This document shows, in pieces, positions 2,994 through 22,086 of a stretch of DNA of 22,339 nucleotides. The DNA lies in the IMG/VR virus record IMGVR_UViG_3300023196_002366, positions 1 to 22,339 of that record; one strand, 5' to 3'. The position numbers were made by a program, and so were the translations under genes. The notes beneath the pieces are model-generated. The model did no database searches and had not been told where the DNA came from. It worked only from the letters and a program-made list of their open reading frames with translations. The number at the start of each line of letters is the position of its first letter. The first letter of the stretch is position 1. The stretch is from a virus.

Positions 2994-3059
2994 GACATAC
3001 CCTTAAAGGATGATATTGTGGGCAAGGACGCCCATTTCACTTACCTGGGAGAAATAACG

Positions 3060-3413
3060 ATGGGTGATTTAAGTAAAAACTTTAGCAGATCAGAATTCGC
3101 ATGTAAGTGCGGGTGTGGATTTAACACTGTGGACAGTGAGCTTATTAGAATATTGCAGAGCTTCAGAGATAAGATTGGTGAACCTATAACTATTAGCAGT
3201 GGGTGCCGATGCCCTATTTACAATGCTTTTATACTAGGTTCGGAGAATAGTCAGCACATGAAGGGGAGGGCAGCGGATATAGTCACTGGGAACCCTATTG
3301 GAGATCAACAATACTTTCTAAAAGAGTATTCTAAGAAATATGGTATTGGTGTATATGATACATTCACTCATATAGATACAAGATCAGGCCCAAAGGCTAG
3401 GTGGCACGGATGA
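3060..3413 (+). CDS. M15A peptidase, putative endolysin
   Basis: The product is a zinc D-Ala-D-Ala carboxypeptidase-like peptidase (Peptidase_M15_3) of 117 residues. The zinc ligands fit the family: His66 and Asp73 in SQHMKGRAAD, and His104 in HID. The segment near ARWHG is typical of the C-terminus. Such enzymes cut peptidoglycan cross-links at the end of infection. I chose the ATG at 3060 because GGGAG lies 8 bases upstream and the M15 domain starts directly after it (LSKNFSRSEF). A GTG at 3018 has its own AAAGGA at 7 bases and would add 14 residues. No signal peptide is seen, so export would need a holin or other route. The stop overlaps the next start (ATGA). Confidence 0.88.
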   Translation: MGDLSKNFSRSEFACKCGCGFNTVDSELIRILQSFRDKIGEPITISSGCRCPIYNAFILGSENSQHMKGRAADIVTGNPIGDQQYFLKEYSKKYGIGVYDTFTHIDTRSGPKARWHG

Positions 3414-7119: not shown

Positions 7120-8013
7120 ATGTTAATTATAGGTGCTGGAATATCAGGCCTGCTAGCTGGGCAATACTTTAGACATCTGAACCCGACTATCATTGAAGCT
7201 CAAGACAGTTTGCCAAATAACCATTCTGCTCTTTTAAGATTCCGCTCCGATGCGGTGTCCAACCTAACTGGCATACCATTCAAAAAGGTAACAGTCAGAA
7301 AGTCAATATACCTCAATGATGCCACTCATGACTGGACTACTATAGCAGCTTCCAATATGTACTCTATGAAAGTTCATGGAGACTTGAGAAGCAGATCAAT
7401 AGATAACCTTGAGACTTGCATTAGGTATATCGCACCTAGTGACTTCATTGAGAAGGCATCGAGAGGATTGGATATTCGATATGGATGTGAGTTCGACCCA
7501 TTGGCAGTATCATCAGATGACCATCATGTAATCTCTACGATTCCTATGGAGAATATGTGTGGAGAGCTAGGGATTGACGAGCACCCTGAGCTGAAGCATA
7601 AGCCTATATGGACTATAAATGCTACTCTTGACTGTGAGTCAGATGTATATCAGACGATATACTATCCAGAGCCTAGTAATCCTTTATATAGAATGTCAGT
7701 CACAGGGAGGCAGATCACAGCAGAATTCATTAGAGATTCAGGGAATCATCTGTCACACATCAATCTTGCACTTGGTAATGAATTTGGTATCAACGAGAGG
7801 GTTCTAATATGTGAGGGTAAGTTGCAAAAATATGGCAAGCTAGTTGAATACCAAGGTAACTTTGTGAAGGAAATGATCCAGACATTAACTCAGGACTATG
7901 GTATATATAGTTTGGGGAGATGGGCAACACACCGTCAAATACTGGCTGATGATGTTGTTAATGATATTCATGTGATAGATCGCATGATCAGATCGGAGAA
8001 CTATGGACGATGA
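7120..8013 (+). CDS. FAD/NAD(P)-binding oxidoreductase-like protein
   Basis: The 297 residues begin directly with a Rossmann dinucleotide-binding strand and loop, GAGISG at residues 5-10, with an acidic residue (Glu26) at the end of the second strand for the ribose. This is the FAD-binding pattern of amine-oxidase and UDP-galactopyranose-mutase-like flavoproteins. The C-terminal segment YSLGRWATHR (about residues 264-273) resembles the second FAD-contacting motif of that superfamily. It is shorter than cellular members (usually over 350 residues). The ribosome binding site AAGAGGT is well placed. Its stop overlaps the HNH gene, which in turn overlaps a ThyX-like gene, so the context points to nucleotide or DNA-base chemistry; the substrate is unknown. 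Confidence 0.78.
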   Translation: MLIIGAGISGLLAGQYFRHLNPTIIEAQDSLPNNHSALLRFRSDAVSNLTGIPFKKVTVRKSIYLNDATHDWTTIAASNMYSMKVHGDLRSRSIDNLETCIRYIAPSDFIEKASRGLDIRYGCEFDPLAVSSDDHHVISTIPMENMCGELGIDEHPELKHKPIWTINATLDCESDVYQTIYYPEPSNPLYRMSVTGRQITAEFIRDSGNHLSHINLALGNEFGINERVLICEGKLQKYGKLVEYQGNFVKEMIQTLTQDYGIYSLGRWATHRQILADDVVNDIHVIDRMIRSENYGR

Positions 8014-8339
8014 AGAAGACTATGAGAATGGCAGAATCGGACATTGACAGATTCTGGGAAAAAGTTGAGGTTAAAGGTGATGATGAGTGCTGGCCGTGGA
8101 AAGCCTCTCAAGTAGGCACTACAGGCTATGGTCAGTTCAGGCTAAATGAGCAAAAGCCTCGTGCCCATAGAATAGCTTGGTTCATAGCAAATGGCACTAT
8201 ACCTGAAGGGCTGAAAATATGTCACAGCTGTGATAATACTCTTTGCTGTAATCCAGCTCATTTATGGGCAGGAACACAGAAAGAGAATATTCGAGATATG
8301 ATTTCCAAAGGAAGAGGGAGATATGCAATATGCGAGTAA
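8010..8339 (+). CDS. HNH endonuclease (HNH_3, homing-type)
   Basis: The ATG at 8010 overlaps the FAD gene stop as ATGA. The 109 residues carry the HNH_3 pattern: an N-terminal DECWPW segment, His53 in RAHRIAW, then CHSC (71-74), CCNPAH (79-84) and the tail LWAGTQKENIRDM. Cys and His residues bind zinc and His/Asn form the active site. Free-standing proteins of this kind are often homing endonucleases that spread between phage genomes by cutting alleles that lack them. Here it sits exactly between two metabolic genes and overlaps the next start by 10 bases, which is unusually tight for a recent invader. Confidence 0.88.
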   Translation: MKKTMRMAESDIDRFWEKVEVKGDDECWPWKASQVGTTGYGQFRLNEQKPRAHRIAWFIANGTIPEGLKICHSCDNTLCCNPAHLWAGTQKENIRDMISKGRGRYAICE

Positions 8340-9043
8340 CACTATTGAACTACACCCAGAATGCTAAAGAACTTTTAATCTTTACCAAGAGCACTAGGCT
8401 CAAGATGAGTCCAGATTTGATGAATGATATTAATCTTATGTCAGAGGAGGACAAGCTATCAGAGCTGCATTATATGAGCAACACAATACCTAGTAGTTGG
8501 GAATTCGTTGACTATACATTCCTTATCGAAGACGTATCTCGTGCCTTCACTCACCAGTTAGTAAGGAGTCGTCAGGGAAGCTACGCTCAACAGACCATGA
8601 GAGTCCTGAATAAGTCAGGGTTTGACTATGTCACTGGGCCTAGCATGAAGGGTGATGTTAAACGTGAGGAGCTGTATGAGGCAACTATGGATGGCATCGA
8701 TGGAATCTATAAGCTGCTCATAAAGTATGGAGCAGAAATAGAGGATGCCAGAGGAATACTCCCTACTAATATCTGTACTAATATCGTAGCAAAATATAAC
8801 CTGAGAACACTAAGTGAGATAATGGCCGCTAGAGCCTCCGCTCGCACGCAAGCCGAGTACAGATGTGTCCTGAACGCTATATATGATGAAGTGATAAAAG
8901 TCCACCCTTGGGCCGATATGTTCCTGAGAGATAAGAAGTATGAAGCAGCAGCAGCACTGGAGTCTCGAATCAAAAGTGATTATGACGGGACTGATATATG
9001 TGCTCCCCTTTTGAAACAGCTTGATATATTGAGGAAAAAGTAA
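8330..9043 (+). CDS. thyX: ThyX-family flavin-dependent thymidylate synthase homologue, variant motif
   Basis: The ATG at 8330 has GAGGGAG upstream and gives 237 residues, the usual ThyX size. ThyX makes dTMP from dUMP with FAD, NADPH and methylene-tetrahydrofolate. Family features are IEDVSRAFTHQLVR (66-79), then a signature RSRQGSYAQQTMR (79-91), and the C-terminal ILPTNICTNIVAKYNLR...ARTQAEYR region with the substrate-binding Arg and Gln. The canonical signature RHRxxSxNxxSxR is altered: His to Ser80, Asn to Ala86 and Ser to Thr89. It may be a divergent phage ThyX or an enzyme with a changed pyrimidine substrate. The stop overlaps the next start as TAATG. Confidence 0.85.
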   Translation: MRVTLLNYTQNAKELLIFTKSTRLKMSPDLMNDINLMSEEDKLSELHYMSNTIPSSWEFVDYTFLIEDVSRAFTHQLVRSRQGSYAQQTMRVLNKSGFDYVTGPSMKGDVKREELYEATMDGIDGIYKLLIKYGAEIEDARGILPTNICTNIVAKYNLRTLSEIMAARASARTQAEYRCVLNAIYDEVIKVHPWADMFLRDKKYEAAAALESRIKSDYDGTDICAPLLKQLDILRKK

Positions 9044-9264
9044 TGGATGATGATCCCTTGAATCTTCAGCATGGTGGTAATCACTACAAGAAATATCTCA
9101 TACAGCCTGTTGAGTTCTGTCATGTTAATAAGATACCTGTTATTGAATCTAATATTATCAAGTATGTTGTTCGTCATCAGGACAAGCACGGAGCGGAGGA
9201 TTTGATGAAAGCGAAGCATCTCATAGACATACTACTGGAGTTTGACTATTATGACGCTGATTGA
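9043..9264 (+). CDS. DUF3310-family protein
   Basis: The 73 residues match the small phage family DUF3310 (often labelled nucleotide kinase without direct proof): HGGNHYKK near the start, IQPVEFC, then ESNIIKYVVRHQDKHGAEDLMKAKHLIDILLE. The start shares TAATG with the ThyX stop, and the end overlaps the methyltransferase gene by 14 bases. Position next to ThyX fits a role in nucleotide metabolism, but the activity of the family is not established. Confidence 0.87.
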   Translation: MDDDPLNLQHGGNHYKKYLIQPVEFCHVNKIPVIESNIIKYVVRHQDKHGAEDLMKAKHLIDILLEFDYYDAD

Positions 9265-9757
9265 TCTGTTCAATCTAGGCATGATGAGGCACTACCATGA
9301 ACCATTGCCCGATAGGAAGGGGCTAGTGCTGAATCTAGGGGCTGGGGAAAAACACATAGATGGCGCAGAAAGCCTCGACCTGCCTGAATGGGATGCAAAC
9401 AAGAATCACCTTCAGTATTACGAAAGTACTGTGGATATGATTCACTGTTATCACTTACTGGAGCATGTCGATAATGTAGTGTTCCTGATGAATGAGATAA
9501 GGAGGGTGTTAAAGCCGGGAGCACATGTCAATATCGTAGTTCCTTATTACAAATCTCACTTACAAGCGAGTGATCTGGATCACAAGCATGCATTTACCGA
9601 GAGGACATTTGAGAAACTGTTTAATACTACTTACTATTCAAAGGGGAAAATTAGGCCGATGGAGATATGTACCAACTTCATCATGGGTGATTGTGAGGCT
9701 AATATCTGTTTGGTAGTTCAACTAAGGAAGACATTTAATGCAGACGATTATATTTGA
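9251..9757 (+). CDS. Class I SAM-dependent methyltransferase
   Basis: I take the ATG at 9251 (GGAG about 10 bases upstream) over a TTG at 9242. The 168 residues show motif I LNLGAGE (27-33), an acidic DLPEW after strand 2 (43-47), the strand-4 region VDMIHCYHLLEHV (61-73), and RRVLKPGAHVNIVVP (84-98), all typical of Methyltransf_11. It has no NPPY or PC motif, so an N6-adenine or C5-cytosine DNA methylase is unlikely. The target could be a small molecule, a nucleotide or a modified base; the sequence does not decide. It overlaps both neighbours and is probably co-translated with them. Confidence 0.82.
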   Translation: MTLIDLFNLGMMRHYHEPLPDRKGLVLNLGAGEKHIDGAESLDLPEWDANKNHLQYYESTVDMIHCYHLLEHVDNVVFLMNEIRRVLKPGAHVNIVVPYYKSHLQASDLDHKHAFTERTFEKLFNTTYYSKGKIRPMEICTNFIMGDCEANICLVVQLRKTFNADDYI

Positions 9758-13040: not shown

Positions 13041-14084
13041 ATGACTACACTATACAAGATGGATGCTAAAGGTGCTACTCGGATCTGGGAGATCGAGGCA
13101 AATCGGTCGGGATATGAGACCAGCGCCGGTCAGCTGGGAGGTACTATAAACTCCAAACAACATACGATACATCAGGGAAAGGCAGGTAGGAATAAGGAGG
13201 AACAGATAGAGCTTGAAATGAACAGTCGCATCAAGAAGAAGATCGATGGTGGATACGGCTATGACATAGAGTCGGCCAATGTAAAGGCAACAAATAGCCT
13301 CGGCCTTAAAAAGCCTATGCTGGCTCATAGTGCTACTCGAATTTGCCTCCCTGATGCATTCTATCTCCAGTATAAGTATGATGGCAATCGATGCATTATC
13401 ACTAAGCAGGAAGGTGAAGTGATAGCATACTCCAGAGGTGGGAAGCGCATTGACACCATTGACCATATCCTGTCTGCTTGCAAGGACATACCTGAAGGCG
13501 TTTTTCTAGACGGTGAGTTGTATAAGCATGGAGTCCCGCTGCAGACGCTGAGGTCATGGATTTCAAGGAAGCAGCCAAGGTCAGAGTCATTAGAGTATAT
13601 CCTGTACGATATGATCGCCCCAGAACCCTTCATCGCCCGTATGCAGGAGTTCAAGGGATACTCGCTTCAGAACCCCGTCCTGATAGCCCCTACGGTGTTC
13701 TTAGACGGTGAATCAGCTAAGTCTAGTATTAAGGCGCGGTTGGACTCAGCTATCGTTAGAGGCTACGAGGGACTAATCGCGAGGGTAGGAGATGATGGCT
13801 ATGAAGATGGAAAGCGATCCAAAAGCCTCATCAAGATCAAAAGGTGGATGGATGCTGAGTTCCCCATCGTAGCGATTTCCGCTTCTGTCGATGGCCTAGC
13901 AATCCTTCACTGTACTACGGCTACAGATAAGGAGTTCAGAGTTACAGCACCTGGAGCGAATGATATGAAGGCAAACATATATCAGAATAAGGAGAATCAC
14001 ATAGGAAGGAAGGTAACTGTTCAGTTTGCCAACTGGACGAGTGATGGGGTTCCATTTCACCCAGTGGCAATAGACTTCCGTTAA
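13041..14084 (+). CDS. ATP-dependent DNA ligase
   Basis: The 347-residue ligase has an N-terminal WGR-like region (1-75), then the nucleotidyltransferase core: adenylated Lys112 in KYDGNR, SRGGKR (131-136), FLDGELY with Glu159, EGLIAR (243-248) and SLIKIKRW with Lys265 and Lys267. The C-terminal part (275-347, ending near DGVPFHPVAIDFR) is an OB fold. It seals nicks using ATP, for example between Okazaki fragments made by the phage replicase. It starts 1 base after the polymerase stop, with AAAAGGA upstream. Its stop is 1 base from the stop of the convergent minus-strand gene. Confidence 0.93.
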   Translation: MTTLYKMDAKGATRIWEIEANRSGYETSAGQLGGTINSKQHTIHQGKAGRNKEEQIELEMNSRIKKKIDGGYGYDIESANVKATNSLGLKKPMLAHSATRICLPDAFYLQYKYDGNRCIITKQEGEVIAYSRGGKRIDTIDHILSACKDIPEGVFLDGELYKHGVPLQTLRSWISRKQPRSESLEYILYDMIAPEPFIARMQEFKGYSLQNPVLIAPTVFLDGESAKSSIKARLDSAIVRGYEGLIARVGDDGYEDGKRSKSLIKIKRWMDAEFPIVAISASVDGLAILHCTTATDKEFRVTAPGANDMKANIYQNKENHIGRKVTVQFANWTSDGVPFHPVAIDFR

Positions 14085-14085
14085 A

Positions 14086-15636
14086 CTACTTCCAACCTTC
14101 CTTCTGGAGTCTGGCTCTGATCTTAGCAGACTTCTCATCTAACTTCTTCCGCTCTGCCTGCTCTCGCTTAACCTTCTTGGCATTCGATTCATCTCGATAT
14201 TGGCTAGTTGTTGCTGCTGCTACATTGCCTGTCCTTGGCTTGAATAGTCCCAATCCCTCACCAAGCAGGCTATCTGAGAATTTGGTACCAGCCTTCTGAA
14301 TTGGCGTCTGACCTAACGCAAGCCTAGCACCCCTCTCCAGTTTTTCCTGATCTACTACATCAGGCAAAATGGGATTGATTTTTCGGACCATGCTATTGGT
14401 CAATCCAAAAGATGGCCTGTCAACAGTTTCCAGCCCCAATTGCCCAATGTTATAGAGGGCAATATCGCCAACAGATGCAGCTTCATCTCCTGCCTCCTCA
14501 GCACCTGCTTGTAGCATTCTCGAAAATGGTGGGCCTTCTTCTACTGGTGTGGCAGCACTTCTAGCTCTAGCTTTCTTGAGTGTTTCTAAGCCAGGTTTCT
14601 TCTGATGGAATAATGCCAATTCTTCTTTCTTGCCAGCAGGTAGGCCATCGTCGAGTCTTTTTCTAGCGTTTGCAAATGCCTCCCTAACTCTCGGTGGAGC
14701 ATCTTCAGCAAGACTTACAGCTTTGTCTAATGTCTCCCTCATTGTCCTCAGTGTGTGCTTGTGATTAGCTGAAATTACATCACTTGAGATTATGTCAGTC
14801 AAATCTTCCATATATTTATTCATGTATATCATATCTGATTCTGGAACTTTTCTCATGTCCAACATGAGATTGGTAATTATATCCCCGCTCTTTTCAAGTG
14901 ACATGGGAGTGTCATCCCAGATACGATTCCATGCTATTTTAGATTGCTTCAGGGTTTTCCTGAATCCTTCATTGCCAGTTGCAAGGATGTCGCTTGGGTA
15001 CATCTGAACTTGCCTTTGTGCAACATCTTTAAGCTGCTGAGCAGCATTACCTCTAGCAGTACGGACAGCAGGACTAGCCATGGCTGCTAACTCTTCAAGC
15101 CTTGGCACTACATTACCAGAAGATGCGATTCCAGGAGTCGGGTATTTACCAACTAAATCTTTATACTCTTCAGCAGCGTCAGTTCTGGCAATACCTCTCA
15201 TTGGATTTGGAAGTAGCTTGCCAGCAATTTCTCCTATCCCTGAGCCTGCCAATGACCCTAGCACTTCAGCCCCAGCATTTCCAAGTCTTGTTTGCCCCTC
15301 CTCAGGAGATTGAGCAGCAGCAACTAGACCACCACTAGCGGCATCCATAGCCATACGAGCCTTAGATGATAGTTTTGCAGCCTTGCCAGACAACTTCAGA
15401 CCTTTGGCTACAGCGCCTCCAGGCATTGCCATTTGAACTGCTTCACCAAAAATCTGCCCTGCGGTGCCCCAACCAGACTCCGCTGCGTCGGCGACTAAAG
15501 AATCCAATCGTTCCTGCTGCTCTGGACTCAACTCCTTGAATAATTCCTGAATGCCATATAGAGTGCCAAGTCCTGAAGCGCCTACCCCTTGTCCAAAATC
15601 CTGCCACCAAGCATCTTTCTCTTTAGCACCTGCCAT
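14086..15636 (-). CDS. Putative internal virion/ejection protein (516 aa)
   Basis: This is the last gene of the minus-strand virion block. I prefer the ATG at 15636 (AGGTG 6 bases upstream) over a GTG at 15645 that directly follows the previous stop. The protein opens with a Gly/Ala-rich, helical region (GQGVGASGLGTLYG; later GGAVAKGLKLSGKAAKL and an Ala/Gly stretch near residues 95-140), then long charged helices. It ends with a basic, coiled-coil-like tail (about 475-516, rich in Lys, Arg, Glu). Hydrophobic Gly/Ala stretches and helical repeats are typical of podovirus proteins ejected into the host, but no family is recognised with certainty. It could instead be another minor structural protein. 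Confidence 0.8.
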   Translation of the reverse strand: MAGAKEKDAWWQDFGQGVGASGLGTLYGIQELFKELSPEQQERLDSLVADAAESGWGTAGQIFGEAVQMAMPGGAVAKGLKLSGKAAKLSSKARMAMDAASGGLVAAAQSPEEGQTRLGNAGAEVLGSLAGSGIGEIAGKLLPNPMRGIARTDAAEEYKDLVGKYPTPGIASSGNVVPRLEELAAMASPAVRTARGNAAQQLKDVAQRQVQMYPSDILATGNEGFRKTLKQSKIAWNRIWDDTPMSLEKSGDIITNLMLDMRKVPESDMIYMNKYMEDLTDIISSDVISANHKHTLRTMRETLDKAVSLAEDAPPRVREAFANARKRLDDGLPAGKKEELALFHQKKPGLETLKKARARSAATPVEEGPPFSRMLQAGAEEAGDEAASVGDIALYNIGQLGLETVDRPSFGLTNSMVRKINPILPDVVDQEKLERGARLALGQTPIQKAGTKFSDSLLGEGLGLFKPRTGNVAAATTSQYRDESNAKKVKREQAERKKLDEKSAKIRARLQKEGWK

Positions 15637-15645
15637 TTTGATCAC

Positions 15646-17016
15646 CTATTCCAAAGTCATTTTTTCGCCATTAGGCAGAGTCACAGTTTTTCCATCTGCA
15701 TCATATACAATGCCTGTGTTATCATCTGTGTTCGTTCCATGTACTGTGAATCTCTTATCCCACCTATCTATAACACGTTGGGAAGTTCTGAAAGGCCCAT
15801 CACCATCACTGTGGATTTCTTTATATTTGAAATAATTGTCACCTTGCCTTTCTTTGGCCTGATCCATCATGTTTTCAATTCGGAGCATAACATGCTTAAT
15901 CTGATCTGTCATTTCCTCAGGGGAAACACTAGAGTCCAGAGTACCAATATATCCAACCAGCATCATCAATTCAGTTTCGTTCAAAGCTCCAAAACCAGTA
16001 GCTCCAGTAGAAGTCTCCCTCTTCATTTTGTTTATTTGATCGATGGCAAAACGTGACTTCAATCCTTCAATTATAACTCGCGCCTCATTCGGCGGAAGTA
16101 CTGGAATTTTATCTAACCAAGAAGCAAATCCAACGCTAGCCCATGAAGTTTTATCGCCAAGTTTTTTCAATAGCCTCTTTGTATCATTGAGAAACATGAG
16201 ATTTGTATCATCTTTCCTCATTTCTTCAGGGGCCATCTTGACCCATGGAGCTATATCTTTACCGTATGCTTTCTCATATTCAGCTATAGCTAAATTCTTC
16301 GTTACTGTTTGGTCTTTAAGGCCAATCCCCTCACGCTCAGTAGATGTAAAGGAATCACCTCTGTCAAGATATTTATTAAGCCCCCAAGCAGATGCATGAC
16401 GTTCTAAAGCCTCTTGAGGTGGGTTGCCATCGTATAGTTTGTAAATTTGCTCAAGAGCTGCAGCTTGCTGTGCGCCTGATGCCCTACTATCACCAGAGTA
16501 TGTTATCCAGTTTTCAGCGGTGTCCTCTAATCCTTTGTCTTTTAACCATGTTTTATAGGCAACACCCCATCGACCTTTGCCAGAGCCATCAGCCCCAGCG
16601 AGCTTTTTGCGATTGGCATGCCACTTCGAATATTCCTTCAATCCACCATCAGTTTCAGGATCCCAACTTCCATCAGCGATAGATGCATTCATCTCCTTCA
16701 TCAGAGTGGTAGCGCTTATCCCAGAGTCACTCTTATTACGACTCTGGTGATACTGACTAATCATGCTAAGGCCAGTCTTGTACAATCCTGGATGGCCTGA
16801 AGTCATGAGCGATTCAACAGAACGCTTCCAGCGCTCATCAGGTGTCTCTGTCCTTTTTGTTCTTTCTCCAGTTTTGGGATCTACCTTATCGGGCAAAGGC
16901 CGATTCATTCTCTCGAAATGCTGCTCCGAAAACGCCTTCTCATTTCGTGGTTGATTGTAAACATTAAGACCAATCAGATTCTTCATCCGATCTGTATCAG
17001 GGCTAAATAGTCCCAT
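15646..17016 (-). CDS. Putative internal virion protein (456 aa)
   Basis: The ATG at 17016 overlaps the upstream stop as TGATG, with GGAGG 7 bases before it; a GTG one codon earlier is less likely. The protein is hydrophilic and largely helical. The segment ATGFGALNETELMML (around residue 350), followed by GYIGTLDSS, matches a short conserved pattern of phage internal or DNA-transfer proteins as I remember it. The N-terminus contains NVYNQPRNEK and a charged Lys/Arg/Glu stretch. There is no enzymatic motif: no lysozyme or transglycosylase active site is visible. Function is inferred from position between virion genes. Confidence 0.82.
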   Translation of the reverse strand: MGLFSPDTDRMKNLIGLNVYNQPRNEKAFSEQHFERMNRPLPDKVDPKTGERTKRTETPDERWKRSVESLMTSGHPGLYKTGLSMISQYHQSRNKSDSGISATTLMKEMNASIADGSWDPETDGGLKEYSKWHANRKKLAGADGSGKGRWGVAYKTWLKDKGLEDTAENWITYSGDSRASGAQQAAALEQIYKLYDGNPPQEALERHASAWGLNKYLDRGDSFTSTEREGIGLKDQTVTKNLAIAEYEKAYGKDIAPWVKMAPEEMRKDDTNLMFLNDTKRLLKKLGDKTSWASVGFASWLDKIPVLPPNEARVIIEGLKSRFAIDQINKMKRETSTGATGFGALNETELMMLVGYIGTLDSSVSPEEMTDQIKHVMLRIENMMDQAKERQGDNYFKYKEIHSDGDGPFRTSQRVIDRWDKRFTVHGTNTDDNTGIVYDADGKTVTLPNGEKMTLE

Positions 17017-17540
17017 CACACACCTCCCATCAATCCTTGTATTATCTTATTCACATACCCAGGCATTTGCTTCATCTCTTGCCGTGGCTCCTTTTTCATA
17101 GCCATGCCCATGAGGCTGCCCATATTCTCCTGAGACTGTAGGCCCATCTTATCTCGCTCAGGCATTTCATATCCCTTATCGGCATACATTTCAGATCTGG
17201 CAATAGATCTCTCTGGATATAATTGCTCAAGCTCATTCATGACCTGCTTGTCATCTGTGCCTTCATAGAGATCAATGTCAGGCTGCTCTGGAGGGAATAA
17301 TCCTTCATGAGTAGACATTTGCTCAAGCATAGCATCCACACTGGGACTCGTAGGCGGCCTTGCTTCTGGTTGTGGTGGTTGGCCAGGTTCAAGGGACTCC
17401 GCCTTCGGGCGCTGCTGATACGCCCCCATCAATCCCTCTCCCTGCATTTGCTGCAATACTTGCTGAAGCTCAGCAGGGTTAGTCTGTATGAGCAATTGAT
17501 AGAGCATTTCAGGTGACATAAGTGAATTTTGATTAGTCAT
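17016..17540 (-). CDS. Hypothetical virion-associated protein (174 aa)
   Basis: ATG at 17540 follows GAGGGA at 6 bases. The product is rich in Met, Gln, Pro and Glu. A Gln/Leu-rich helix (residues 8-35) is followed by a disordered Pro-rich stretch (PGQPPQPEARPP), then an acidic middle and a Met-rich C-terminus (GSLMGMAMKK, IIQGLMGGV). No domain is recognised. It could be a scaffold-like or minor internal protein of the particle. It is translationally coupled to the next gene. Confidence 0.72.
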   Translation of the reverse strand: MTNQNSLMSPEMLYQLLIQTNPAELQQVLQQMQGEGLMGAYQQRPKAESLEPGQPPQPEARPPTSPSVDAMLEQMSTHEGLFPPEQPDIDLYEGTDDKQVMNELEQLYPERSIARSEMYADKGYEMPERDKMGLQSQENMGSLMGMAMKKEPRQEMKQMPGYVNKIIQGLMGGV

Positions 17541-17552
17541 AACGATTCCCTC

Positions 17553-18461
17553 TTACATACCGCCGAATGTGCCACTAACGCCCCCACCTCCTCCACCAGA
17601 GCCACCTCCCTTCACACCACCGCCACCAGAACCACCAACTGCCTTAGAGTTAGAGTCACCAGATCCCAGTACAGTTGGGCTACCGATAGTATTAGCATAC
17701 TGACCTGCCATCTGCCAAGGGGCATTATAGGCTTGCATGTATGGGGCCATTGATCCCATTCCAAGATTCTGAAGCCCTTGGCCATAGCCCATTCCAGCAC
17801 CTACATTCTGATCAGCTCCACCCATCATTTGCATATATCTGTTCTGGGTGTTCTGGACATTAGAGTCAGCCATACCAGCTATGCGCATCTTCATAGCCAT
17901 GTCTTTGTCATATGCGCCACCTCGCATATTAGCCTCTTGGGTCATCATATCGCGATTAGCCTGAGCACCCAGCATAGCGTTCTGCATAGCATGCCTAGAG
18001 CCTCCGCCCTGCCCTGCTGCCGAAGCATCAAGACCAGCGTTCGATTGCATCCCTTGAAGGTTCTGCATCGCACCTTGCTTCATGGCATCGACCATAGGAT
18101 CTATGTAAGTATTGCCTTCACCTCCAACAATACTTCTATACATATCGCCCATATTGGTCTGACCAGAGCCAGTCTGCCTCATTGACTGCATGAGGGCATT
18201 CCGAGCATCAGAGGTATCTCCGAATGAGCCACCTCCTAGCATCTGCTCCTGACCTGCCGCGCCCCTTCCCATTAGCCCCTGATTGTATCCACCAAGGTTC
18301 CCTGCTAACCCTTGAAGGATTCCGCTGAGCCCGCCACTCTGACCCCATAGATCACCCATCTGACCATAGAGATTCTGCAGAGCCTCTCCTTGAGGCCGCC
18401 ATACATTTTGGTCGAAACCACTTTCGGATTCTGATTTGCTACCTGATCCTGAACCGCCCAT
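17553..18461 (-). CDS. Gly/Met/Gln-rich virion protein (302 aa)
   Basis: The ATG at 18461 overlaps the preceding stop as TGATG, with GGTGG upstream; a GTG one codon before is less likely. The N-terminus (GSGSGSKSESESGFDQNVW, then ALQNLYGQMGDLWGQ) matches the start of a family of podovirus virion proteins as I recall it. The middle (about 120-220) is an Ala/Met/Gln/Asn-rich helical region. The C-terminal 40 residues are almost all Gly and Ser, a flexible tail. Such proteins lie next to ejection proteins and are probably carried in the particle. The exact role is unknown. Confidence 0.8.
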   Translation of the reverse strand: MGGSGSGSKSESESGFDQNVWRPQGEALQNLYGQMGDLWGQSGGLSGILQGLAGNLGGYNQGLMGRGAAGQEQMLGGGSFGDTSDARNALMQSMRQTGSGQTNMGDMYRSIVGGEGNTYIDPMVDAMKQGAMQNLQGMQSNAGLDASAAGQGGGSRHAMQNAMLGAQANRDMMTQEANMRGGAYDKDMAMKMRIAGMADSNVQNTQNRYMQMMGGADQNVGAGMGYGQGLQNLGMGSMAPYMQAYNAPWQMAGQYANTIGSPTVLGSGDSNSKAVGGSGGGGVKGGGSGGGGGGVSGTFGGM

Positions 18462-18880
18462 CACGCCACCTTCTTTGATACAGTTGTATGTATGGTATTA
18501 TAATCCAATCTCTTCAATTTCCTAGTCCAACCTGCTCTTCCAACTATATATATCTCAGAGCATTTCTCACGTTTGCTTATTTCAGTCAACGCTTGGTCAA
18601 TCTCATTCACCCAATCGTCGATATTATCTCCACCTGTAGTTACTATAGTCAACACCTTTTTACCAGTATCGAAATAGTTTATCTTTATGGTCATGACTGC
18701 TACTATGCCATCCTCATTTCGCATCACGATCAATCGCATTTTATCATCTATCAGGTCGAGCAGTATGCCATCTGTATCAAGCTCACCATTGGAGTGCTTA
18801 CATGCACTCTCAACATGCTCGACTACATTGGGCCACATGACCTCTACCATATCAGGCTCAATACCATTAATCTGCATCAT
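18461..18880 (-). CDS. GNAT-like phage protein (139 aa)
   Basis: The start codons ATGATG at 18880 overlap the stop of the upstream gene, with TTGGA 8 bases before. The pattern is that of an acyltransferase-like fold: strands IVAVMTIKINYF and KVLTIVTTGG, a helix WVNEIDQALTEISKREKC, strand SEIYIVGR and the motif GRAGWTRKLKRL (114-125). Similar small proteins sit in many phage virion operons and are annotated as putative acetyltransferases, but catalysis has not been shown to my knowledge. A structural or morphogenesis role is equally possible. Confidence 0.72.
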   Translation of the reverse strand: MMQINGIEPDMVEVMWPNVVEHVESACKHSNGELDTDGILLDLIDDKMRLIVMRNEDGIVAVMTIKINYFDTGKKVLTIVTTGGDNIDDWVNEIDQALTEISKREKCSEIYIVGRAGWTRKLKRLDYNTIHTTVSKKVA

Positions 18881-19500
18881 TCAGCTAGTCCAATTGCTGT
18901 GACTCTAAGAAAGGCAGAAGGGATGTCTGATGCACCGGCAAAGGTAGGTACATATGTATAAAGACCTCCAGAGTCACTACCTGAAGAATCCCTCAATAAG
19001 TAAAATTTCCTCACATCTCCAACTACAAGATTATTCCTAAAAGTTGCCGTGAGAGGAAAATGATCACCTGGACTATCGACAGTTATTGCAACCCCTGGGC
19101 CATATTCCACATCATTGAGAGTTCCATAAAACACCAGATTGGCATAGTCGGGAACACCTTCCCTACCAACTGCCACTACTGTTTCGAAAATATATGACCC
19201 TGCTAAATTACAGGTCATAGTACCAGAGGCGTCAATAGCAAGTGGAGCATCAACTGAAGTTGCAGCCCCAAAGGATACTTGCATTGGAGTGTCAAGGGCA
19301 GTCGGGATTTGGTCATTGAAACTGAATCCTTCGAAATGTATGATAGATACACCCTTAAATGACAGCACCCTTCCAATGATTGCCCTCAAGGCACCATTGA
19401 TATTTATGATGGTACGGGTAAGCCATTCAGCCAGACCTCTAGGGTCTTGCACTGGAGGCACTTCTTGAGACACTTGATCTTCAAAAGGAAGATTAGCCAT
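18877..19500 (-). CDS. Virion protein with jelly-roll-like C-terminal domain
   Basis: ATG at 19500 overlaps the upstream stop (TAATG). Residues 1-50 contain a helix (GLAEWLTRTIININGALRAIIG) that may trimerise or anchor the protein. The remainder is beta-rich: SFKGVSIIHFEGFS, GTMTCNLAGSYIFETVVAV and later YLLRDSSG. Its alternation resembles C1q/TNF-like jelly-roll domains of phage fibres and decoration proteins. It has no enzymatic residues that I can see. Position between the nozzle-like and GNAT-like genes supports a tail or head fibre role. Confidence 0.7.
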   Translation of the reverse strand: MANLPFEDQVSQEVPPVQDPRGLAEWLTRTIININGALRAIIGRVLSFKGVSIIHFEGFSFNDQIPTALDTPMQVSFGAATSVDAPLAIDASGTMTCNLAGSYIFETVVAVGREGVPDYANLVFYGTLNDVEYGPGVAITVDSPGDHFPLTATFRNNLVVGDVRKFYLLRDSSGSDSGGLYTYVPTFAGASDIPSAFLRVTAIGLAE

Positions 19501-21095
19501 TATCTCTTACCTGCCATTACATATTCAATATCCATCCCTGACAACTCCCACTTATTCCCAGGGCCATCAGAGCTAAAGCGAAAGCAATGAAGCTCACCAG
19601 TAGTCCTGACATCAACTTTCCTATCGACTCCTGCTTCAAACAGAATACCGGGCTTCCACTTCACAGGTGCATTAATGTGATCTTGCGACCCAATCTCTAC
19701 GAGTATAGTCCCAACACCTGTCAAGTGTGGGTAAACTCTAGTAATTGTAGTTACATTGTCAAGCCCCGCCAGCGGGAATCCAATCCTTTCAACTGATGTG
19801 TGATATTGCGTAGTGGGGTCAGTGCCATTTTTATCCAGGAATCTAAGCTCTCCGCTGAGTCCTGGCCCTGAAGGCTTGCTTACACTTATTACACTGAATA
19901 ATATTGCTCCACTTGAGCCAGCACTCCAAGTTTCACGCTGATTATCCCAAGTACCAGGTGTCGTATCCCATATTATAGGCTCAACTATTTGAGGGCCATA
20001 ATCTGCATATGGCCCTAGCTCAGGCAAATCCCTAAGTGACCATGAATCATCCTCATAATTGTATATGTATGCAATATTTGGATGCTCAAATGAAAGCTCT
20101 GTAATGCAAAACCAAATTTCAGCTAGAAGCTTATTGTGAATTACAAAACTTTGATGCCTTTTTTCAATATCATAGCCATTAACAAATCTACGCCTTAGCC
20201 TATTGTGAAGTATTGAGGTGATGGTATTACCATCATTCTTAAATATATCACCATTCGATATGAAGTAATGTGAACCCCTAACTTCAACAATAGCATCTTG
20301 TGAAATAAGCCCCTGAGTCGTGCTAAGGTGCCTAATCCTCCAAACAAATTGCCCACCGACATAATCAAATATTGTTATTCCATTTGACCTATAGACTATG
20401 AAAGCATCTCGCATTGAGAGACCATCGATGATTCTCCCACCGTCGCCGCCCAATCCAACTAAGCCTGCTACATTTGTAACATCCAGATGATCCCATGATG
20501 CAGGGACTCCTCCGATGTCAGCAGGACTCGACCATCTGATGCCATCAACAAAATCAACACCCTCGACAACTAGATCCATAGCAAATAGAAATTGCTTATG
20601 GCTCCTCATTACTCTGCATGATTGATTTGCCTCAGACCAGTTTTGGGTTGCATCCCAAGGCAGGTATTCCAAAGGAGTAGCGCCATTTATATCAGGCCAA
20701 TATTCAGGGTGATGGTTGTCATGATTCAAGACTATGATATTTGTTAATTTACAAGAGGACCAGCCATCAGGATCTGAAATACCAGAATACCCACCAGCGG
20801 AAAGATTTGAAATATCATGGAAAGTACCTCCATCATATGCCAATACTGAATCAGCTCCGGGAATAACCCAAAATGTCAACCCTTCAGTTCCATGATAGTT
20901 AATATACCCAGGGAGGAAATCAACTGGCAAAGTATCCCAAATAGAATGTCCACCAAACGGGAATATGCGCCCGAGAACAATTCTCATATTGGAGGCTTCT
21001 GTCAGGTAATCTCCATCCAAAGTATAGGCAGGGAGATCAGTATTGATACCCTTTTGAGCAAACCCCGGCAAGTTCAACAGCTGCACACTACTCAT
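19500..21095 (-). CDS. Putative tail nozzle/DNA-stabilisation-like protein
   Basis: This 531-residue, strongly beta-rich protein starts at an ATG with GGTGAG 5 bases upstream. The N-terminal part carries the pattern YLTEASNMRIVLGRIFPFGG (about residues 29-48), which resembles the opening of P22 gp10-like and podovirus tail-nozzle proteins. Repeated strand units with Asp/Gly/Trp turns follow (WSSPADIGG, RDAFIVYRSNGITIFDY, YIYNYEDDSWSLRDLP), fitting a beta-propeller. Such proteins close the tail and hold packaged DNA. The assignment rests on pattern and context; I am fairly sure that it is a virion protein and less sure of the exact part. Confidence 0.78.
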   Translation of the reverse strand: MSSVQLLNLPGFAQKGINTDLPAYTLDGDYLTEASNMRIVLGRIFPFGGHSIWDTLPVDFLPGYINYHGTEGLTFWVIPGADSVLAYDGGTFHDISNLSAGGYSGISDPDGWSSCKLTNIIVLNHDNHHPEYWPDINGATPLEYLPWDATQNWSEANQSCRVMRSHKQFLFAMDLVVEGVDFVDGIRWSSPADIGGVPASWDHLDVTNVAGLVGLGGDGGRIIDGLSMRDAFIVYRSNGITIFDYVGGQFVWRIRHLSTTQGLISQDAIVEVRGSHYFISNGDIFKNDGNTITSILHNRLRRRFVNGYDIEKRHQSFVIHNKLLAEIWFCITELSFEHPNIAYIYNYEDDSWSLRDLPELGPYADYGPQIVEPIIWDTTPGTWDNQRETWSAGSSGAILFSVISVSKPSGPGLSGELRFLDKNGTDPTTQYHTSVERIGFPLAGLDNVTTITRVYPHLTGVGTILVEIGSQDHINAPVKWKPGILFEAGVDRKVDVRTTGELHCFRFSSDGPGNKWELSGMDIEYVMAGKR

Positions 21096-21097
21096 AT

Positions 21098-21379
21098 TTA
21101 CTCACCATTAACTAGCTTCATACCCTTAATGGCAATGTCCTGCCTTTTGACAGTCTCATTCCTAAGAGATTGTATAGATGCATTTCCACCCAGGGCAATG
21201 CCATTCCCTTGAATCTGCAATAGAGGTGCCCATGTAAAAGAGCATCTGCTTTCTCTTACCGGGACTCCGCTCTGCGGGTCTTGACCTTCCAACTCCAAAT
21301 ATAGAGCACATCTCTCAATGTGATCCCCTACAACCTTCTCACAATCAGATCCAAAAGGACAAGTCGATACTGTTTTCAC
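21098..21379 (-). CDS. Small Cys-containing phage protein (93 aa)
   Basis: The start is GTG at 21379 (overlapping the previous stop as GTGA), with AAGGA 6 bases upstream. The N-terminus has STCPFGSDCEKV (Cys7, Cys13), then Cys24 and Cys46 in SRCSFTWAPLLQIQ. Four Cys with this spacing recur in a phage protein family found beside tail genes, as far as I recall, and could bind a metal or cluster. The C-terminus (NASIQSLRNETVKRQDIAI) is a helix. The function is not known. Confidence 0.75.
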   Translation of the reverse strand: MKTVSTCPFGSDCEKVVGDHIERCALYLELEGQDPQSGVPVRESRCSFTWAPLLQIQGNGIALGGNASIQSLRNETVKRQDIAIKGMKLVNGE

Positions 21380-22086
21380 GTTGCATCCTTAGTAGCAGTT
21401 ATTACATTGACATACCTTGGAACAAAAGAAACCTCACTGGTATCCCCATGATTGTGAAGTTCCGTAGCACCATCAATGCCACTAGCATCATTCACACCAC
21501 CCTTGTAGGTTGAATTACACCAAGCTACATGATCAGCATTTCTATCTTCACCTACACGACCATATTTAGTAGATCCAGGATCTTGAGTGCCTGAGACGTC
21601 TTTACTATCATATCCATGTTGGTGATAATGAGATGGCATCTGAGTAGCAGTAAGGATGTGATCACCAGTAGAGTGGGTGTGAGCCCAAGCATCTAGGAAA
21701 TCTACAGTGCCTCCGCTGGCGCCGCCTGATGCGTCGCTGACCAACTGAAGCATTGCCTTATTATCCACTACATTTTGAACCCATCCAACAGGAGGGGCCA
21801 CTGAGGCAAAGAGCATGACTGTACCCAAGGGTGCCCTCAGACTATCAGCTGCTATTGCAGCATCTATCTGAGCTTGGATATTGCTTGTGGCTCCAGATAC
21901 ATAGTTCAATTCAGCTTCAGTAGCAGTGATTGGAATGTCAAAACCTTGCCCTAAATCCCCTGGGAATTGAGCTTTCAGCACTGACTTGATAAGCCTTATA
22001 TGGTCATCACCCTGGAGTAGTGGATCTCCACCGAGTGGCCATGACCCATCAAGTGCCGCTATCGTAATTCCTGCTTCTAATGGCAT
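21376..22086 (-). CDS. Tail fibre/collar-type protein
   Basis: The ATG at 22086 has GAGGG about 9 bases upstream. Residues 20-45 (LLQGDDHIRLIKSVLKAQFPG) form the usual N-terminal attachment motif of phage fibres. ATEAELNYVSGATSNIQAQID is the helix-forming linker, and GTVMLFASVAPPVGWV starts a collar-like domain. The C-terminal half holds HTH, HYHQH and HNH groups, like the HxH iron-binding repeats of trimeric fibres such as T4 gp37. It probably binds the host surface. At 236 residues it is short, so it may be a fibre base or a short spike, with other fibre genes upstream. Confidence 0.85.
   Translation of the reverse strand: MPLEAGITIAALDGSWPLGGDPLLQGDDHIRLIKSVLKAQFPGDLGQGFDIPITATEAELNYVSGATSNIQAQIDAAIAADSLRAPLGTVMLFASVAPPVGWVQNVVDNKAMLQLVSDASGGASGGTVDFLDAWAHTHSTGDHILTATQMPSHYHQHGYDSKDVSGTQDPGSTKYGRVGEDRNADHVAWCNSTYKGGVNDASGIDGATELHNHGDTSEVSFVPRYVNVITATKDAT

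Follow-up and report, generated by a model that had tools for sequence, protein, structure and literature searches.

Our analysis identified a phage flavin enzyme that is encoded nearly always beside an altered ThyX and a phage DNA polymerase, suggesting that these proteins jointly provide an unusual DNA building block. The genes are described here for an IMG/VR virus record of 22,339 bases (the window, meaning the whole stretch analyzed), for which no near DNA match was found in the phage collection. The core consists of the FAD protein and ThyX genes, which stand in one run with the genes encoding a DnaQ-like exonuclease and DNA polymerase III alpha (PolIII alpha; Table 1).

A sequence-only reading of the window had described five overlapping genes, from the FAD protein to the methyltransferase, and these ORFs and all of their overlaps were confirmed on the sequence: the FAD protein and HNH genes overlap in ATGA, the HNH and ThyX genes share 10 bases, the ThyX and DUF3310 genes meet at TAATG, and the DUF3310 and methyltransferase genes share 14 bases. 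The border of this group is arbitrary, since the run continues through DnaQ, which overlaps the end of the methyltransferase gene, and through PolIII alpha, which overlaps DnaQ in ATGA, with a ligase gene next (start at 13041) and the end of the run at 14084. Elsewhere in the window, an endolysin-like protein is encoded amid replication genes (3018-3413; PHROG_894, 1e-34), and a comparable region of Ss1 encodes a putative endolysin. The minus strand carries virion and tail genes from 14086 to 22086 (PHROG_3287, PHROG_6465), together with several long proteins without a PHROG match (14086-15645, 17553-18464).

Table 1. Genes of the run around the FAD protein and ThyX, with the matches behind each assignment (UGM, UDP-galactopyranose mutase)
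Feature	Position	Strand	Evidence
FAD protein, 297 aa, PHROG_4828; UGM-like GR2 flavoprotein fold (predicted)	7120..8013	+	PHROG 1.4e-68; AlphaFold; fold match
HNH endonuclease, 109 aa; non-core	8010..8339	+	HNH_3 47.6 bits (cut-off 24.8)
ThyX variant, 237 aa	8330..9043	+	Pfam Thy1 PF02511 115.2 bits (curated cut-off 24.8)
DUF3310 protein, 73 aa	9043..9264	+	DUF3310 33.2 bits (cut-off 24)
SAM methyltransferase, PHROG_6636	9251..9757 (start codon ATG)	+	PHROG_6636 6.5e-37; Methyltransf_11 32.9 bits (cut-off 21.2)
DnaQ-like DEDDh exonuclease, 179 aa	9738..10277	+	RNase_T 86.7 bits
DNA polymerase III alpha (DnaE-like), 921 aa	10274..13039	+	PHROG_405 4.3e-229

Linkage of the FAD protein and ThyX genes across phages

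A scan of IMG/VR with the single FAD protein sequence gave no match; a scan with an alignment of the family did find loci, 80 in viruses, and ThyX lies downstream of the FAD gene in all of them. Among 77 further loci found via ThyX, 69 carry the FAD gene, and in the remaining eight the sequence upstream of ThyX stops after at most about 4 kb, the FAD gene being located up to about 4.8 kb from ThyX where both are present. The two genes share a strand, with ThyX downstream, in each of the 151 pairs measured, and 85 of these pairs abut or overlap. No FAD gene was found in 76 cellular ThyX loci (stretches of up to 6 kb per side), giving a Fisher p of about 1e-52 for the difference in linkage, which is only a guide, since relatedness among the loci keeps their counts from being independent samples. 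The link is nevertheless far beyond chance, and the tie between the FAD protein and a nucleotide gene stands: FAD homologues far from nucleotide genes, which the sequence-only reading had named as evidence against itself, did not occur in the IMG/VR neighborhoods.

The proposal that all five genes form one functional unit did not hold. Across 165 loci of relatives (found via the FAD protein or via ThyX, some overlapping), DnaQ is present in 131 and PolIII alpha in 118; HNH, DUF3310 and methyltransferase genes are sporadic (3, 9 and 13 loci, respectively) and were rejected as core parts on account of this poor conservation. The HNH gene between the FAD protein and ThyX in the window is probably a mobile insertion, and the methyltransferase may be an optional tailoring enzyme.

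In the set of sequenced phages, the FAD gene is present in 359 records and a ThyX match over 80% of the query in 364, and both genes have the same counts in phages of Pseudomonas (291), Escherichia (27), Serratia (9) and Xanthomonas (6). The carriers include Pbunavirus, Wifcevirus, Carpasinavirus, Myosmarvirus and Ss1-like podoviruses, as well as a 206-kb Rhizobium phage with a different gene layout; the Pseudomonas carriers are mostly Pbunavirus among the matches listed. A profile of the FAD family found no relative in bacterial and archaeal genomes. Scanning such genomes for the variant ThyX returned four contigs only, all four with the FAD gene, and these contigs are probably viral. In the record of Pseudomonas phage WP1 (L171:3286-6288), the FAD gene is broken up into a pair of CDS and ThyX has a short CDS, which may reflect sequencing error or real decay. 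In the Rhizobium phage, a gene for a Seg-like homing endonuclease (L005:9915-10565) follows the FAD gene, at the place matching that of HNH in the window.

Further enzymes recur around the pair. Where an IMG/VR locus extends 5 kb or more beyond ThyX on its downstream side (92 loci), a HAD phosphatase-like protein is encoded in 81 (part of them with weak E-values) and a FabG-like SDR in 49, and SDR counts equal FAD gene counts in phages of Escherichia, Serratia, Xanthomonas and Pantoea. Because the pair thus belongs to a set of several enzymes, biosynthesis fits better than simple dTMP supply. DUF3310 forms the tail of a HAD-like protein adjoining ThyX in Ss1, VA-RY-3 and L093, the last of which has a layout close to that of the window (FAD protein, ThyX, HAD-DUF3310, methyltransferase, DnaQ, PolIII alpha). 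In Ss1-like phages (L002:8543-9211, L004:9710-10390), the fused HAD-like and DUF3310 domains are encoded directly 3' of ThyX. The corresponding gene of the window encodes the DUF3310 part alone, and neither a HAD part nor an SDR was found in its 22 kb, which counts against a modified nucleotide.

Fold and families of the flavoprotein

The FAD protein belongs to a family without known function. It carries a GAGISG dinucleotide motif (7132-7149) and, by the columns of alignment A3, an invariant Tyr-Arg (residues 190-191; 7687-7692) and the C-terminal segment GRWATHRQILADDV (7915-7956). Its AlphaFold model (pLDDT 89.7) has UGM as best PDB fold match (Z 21.5, rmsd 3.5, 294 residues aligned; Foldseek, VIA-align), followed by protoporphyrinogen oxidases and monoamine oxidases, and from this fold and the motif the protein is predicted to bind FAD.

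We rejected the possibility that it is a true UGM: the fold fits, the family profile does not, and the sequences resemble each other only in short motifs, one at the Tyr-Arg strand and one at the C-terminal GRxxxWR. Pfam GLF gave no match at E<=0.1, profile comparison with UGM reached only E 0.086, and hhalign against E. coli Glf aligned the nucleotide-binding motif only; phmmer against PDB returned chance matches only. Unlike UGM, which has 360-500 aa, the proteins considered here have about 297 or 267 aa, and their genes are set among nucleotide genes and not sugar genes.

A second FAD family, PHROG_8720, was found in actinophages. In Microbacterium phage Crestdrop, an "oxidoreductase" of this family is encoded immediately 5' of a ThyX-like gene with RQR. 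PHROG_4828 and PHROG_8720 can be aligned along most of their sequence (hhalign probability 97.9, E 4e-13, in a single comparison), and by this alignment the two families are homologous; the top fold match of PHROG_8720 is also UGM (Z 15.0), which likens both families to the UGM/GR2/amine oxidase group. We sampled 37 IMG/VR loci with PHROG_8720 that are longer than 18 kb, and these encode DnaE (37/37), ThyX (35/37), a HAD phosphatase (34/37), an SDR (20/37) and the PHROG_6636 methyltransferase (5/37). The fullest version of the module that we saw is that of Mycobacterium phage Thoth, in which genes for a PF06941 nucleotidase (above cut-off) and the PHROG_6636 methyltransferase come after the FAD gene. 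Its locus (L176:9001-17210) holds the FAD protein, this NT5C-type phosphatase, PHROG_6636, SDR, DnaE and ThyX-like genes in 8.2 kb. PF06941 is also the family of the dTMP phosphatase of PBS1, a phage with dU-DNA (PMC12697855); unlike PBS1, the other carriers have HAD proteins of other subfamilies, and no evidence of dU-DNA was seen.

Active-site residues of the partnered ThyX

The ThyX of the window resembles that of T. maritima (TM0449) in its Thy1 domain, well over the cut-off, and in its nucleotide site, with R79, R81, R91, R141 and R168 (window numbering) retained. It differs in having I53, F59, S80 (T. maritima 79), T89 (88) and V92 (91) in place of the canonical H, H, H, S and Y, and in its link to a second flavoprotein. 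The RHR-X7-S signature is absent, as the window reads RSRQGSYAQQT.

To place these changes, we compared 127 distinct partnered ThyX with 72 cellular ThyX from a genome scan, using T. maritima numbering. The partnered proteins have I53 (126/127), F59 (126/127), T, S or N at position 79 (124/127) and RXR with X other than H (124/127), whereas the cellular proteins have H53 in all 65 with a residue there, and H59, H79 and S88 in 72 of 72. Position 91 is aromatic in none of the 127 partnered ThyX, which represent the PHROG_4828 lineage of the window, and is Y or F in all 72 cellular ones. Q75, R78, R80, R90, R147 and R174 are retained in every variant, and these include the dUMP-binding arginines 78, 80 and 90 (PMC3498832). 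EH and RHR are kept by six virus ThyX without a FAD partner.

ThyX from PHROG_8720 loci has H53 or H79 in none of 47 proteins, with the dUMP arginines retained in nearly all, and since position 91 is often Phe in that lineage, the histidine loss is the one change that the two lineages share. Judged by these alignments, three histidines (53, 59 and 79) are lost in partnered ThyX and kept in cellular ThyX, which bears out the earlier suggestion of a real active-site variant. In a tree, FAD-linked ThyX falls apart from canonical ThyX with one tip misplaced (support 0.93), and PHROG_4828-linked ThyX forms a clade (support 0.998). His53 of T. maritima ThyX stacks on folate, and its loss would fit altered folate handling.

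Possible products of the pair

We propose that the FAD protein and the histidine-poor ThyX are the core of a nucleotide-level pathway to a non-canonical 5-substituted deoxyuridylate for the phage PolIII alpha, a proposal that we judge to have an even chance of being right. The variant ThyX would still bind dUMP and activate its C5; a C5-methylene (5-hydroxymethyl-like) intermediate would be released or passed on and not reduced to dTMP, and the UGM-like flavoprotein would act on this intermediate or supply the added group. The HAD phosphatase could remove either canonical dNMP or an intermediate carrying phosphate, tailoring of the product could fall to the reductase and, in the window, to the methyltransferase, and PolIII alpha, as its proposed user, would build it into DNA. 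Such diverted chemistry is plausible because acid traps 5hmdUMP as a catalytic intermediate of ThyX (PMC3498832) and because PolB of the polyoxin pathway is a ThyX relative with a changed substrate (PMC5003785). PolB is a precedent for the recruitment of a ThyX relative to modified-pyrimidine synthesis; it differs in being a UMP C5-methylase of an antibiotic pathway, with no phage and no FAD partner described (PMC5003785).

This proposal is supported by the pairing in a fixed order, the retained dUMP arginines, the histidine loss and the linkage with HAD, SDR and PolIII alpha genes. By analogy, Bacillus phage SP-15 may lend further support. About half of its thymine is hypermodified, to 5-(4',5'-dihydroxypentyl)uracil, and gp130, one of two ThyX relatives, was proposed as a hydroxymethyluridylate synthase (PMC5977210). 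We found that gp129, an SDR of PHROG_3142, the reductase family of the carriers, overlaps the start of gp130 (L259:20026-21911), with a PHROG_415/420 HAD-like gene close by; the passages of the SP-15 paper that were consulted do not mention this pairing (PMC5977210). Against the analogy, gp130 is far more diverged than the ThyX of the carriers, profiles of both FAD families detected no partner in about 129 kb of SP-15, and SP-15 has a PolA-type polymerase and sugar-adding enzymes. Further support may come from the Wifcevirus carriers, isolates of which are insensitive to the RM systems tested except EcoP1_I, without known protection (PMC11990801). Against this, RM resistance can have other causes, Wifcevirus is very sensitive to EcoP1_I (PMC11990801), and carriers have been sequenced by ordinary methods. 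That no published nucleoside analysis of carriers was found also counts against a modified nucleotide. Our literature searches found nothing relevant on ThyX, phages and hypermodification, no link between Pbunavirus and DNA modification, and nothing on the FAD-ThyX pair in the MetaGPA and Durham papers. DNA of Pbunavirus JG024 is cut by SacII (PMC3008698), which we rejected as evidence against modified T, since the site, CCGCGG, has no A or T and the result is silent on thymine.

A broader claim, which we consider less likely than not, is that the UGM-fold flavoprotein and the histidine-poor ThyX, in most cases joined by a HAD phosphatase and a reductase, constitute a widespread undescribed phage pathway, whose product, a new C5-substituted deoxyuridine, would replace part or all of the thymine, account for the restriction resistance of Wifcevirus and share its chemistry with the dihydroxypentyl-uracil of SP-15.

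The main rival, which we consider rather doubtful, is a two-component thymidylate synthase, in which the variant ThyX has lost its normal folate/NADPH handling and makes ordinary dTMP for the phage polymerase with electrons or a one-carbon unit from the FAD protein. It agrees with the obligate pairing of two flavin proteins, and dTMP could still be made since the dUMP site is intact, with all its residues retained. Moreover, folate and NADPH bind ThyX at overlapping sites (PMC3498832), and the histidine loss spares the arginines that hold dUMP, so what the variant lacks could be the handling of the reductant or of folate. What it leaves unexplained is why a HAD phosphatase, an SDR and a methyltransferase recur in both lineages and why SP-15 has an SDR-ThyX pair, and the fold matches are to UGM and amine oxidases and to no known NADPH-flavin reductase.

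An unlikely alternative is that the pair forms or eliminates a free nucleotide or nucleoside that does not enter DNA, for instance to stop the host from using dTMP or as an answer to a nucleotide-based defense. The nucleotidase gene adjoining the FAD gene in Thoth, the MazG of Crestdrop and MoiGyank, and the single insensitivity phenotype of Wifcevirus across all tested defenses would agree with this, but the constant presence of phage PolIII alpha and DnaQ points to DNA synthesis.

It is very improbable that the FAD protein is the FAD enzyme of the known post-replicative thymidine hypermodification (M6, ViI, SP10, PhiW-14 type), an analogy raised by the sequence-only reading. In its favor, the window encodes both an enzyme of the FAD type and a relative of thymidylate synthase. 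Against it, tblastn at E<=0.01 matched its own family only, profiles of both FAD families found nothing in 44 kb of M6, ThyX stands in place of a ThyA-type hydroxymethylase, and no DNA kinase, aG/PT-PPlase or glycosyltransferase family matched among the window proteins scanned, the contig being a fragment. On the tblastn and M6 profile results, we rejected a relationship of the FAD protein to these enzymes.

The gene pair occurs in the 291 Pseudomonas phage records noted above, mostly with the flavin gene annotated as hypothetical, and Pbunavirus is one of the genera among those P. aeruginosa phages that are chosen most often for personalized therapy (PMC11990801). Even if the product is plain dTMP, the pair would represent a case of ThyX in need of a second flavoenzyme, for which we know of no precedent. 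A new base would mean that 5-substituted uracil can reach DNA by a way other than that of ThyA-type hydroxymethylases, and it would give the restriction resistance of Wifcevirus, which its discoverers left unexplained, a cause open to direct testing.
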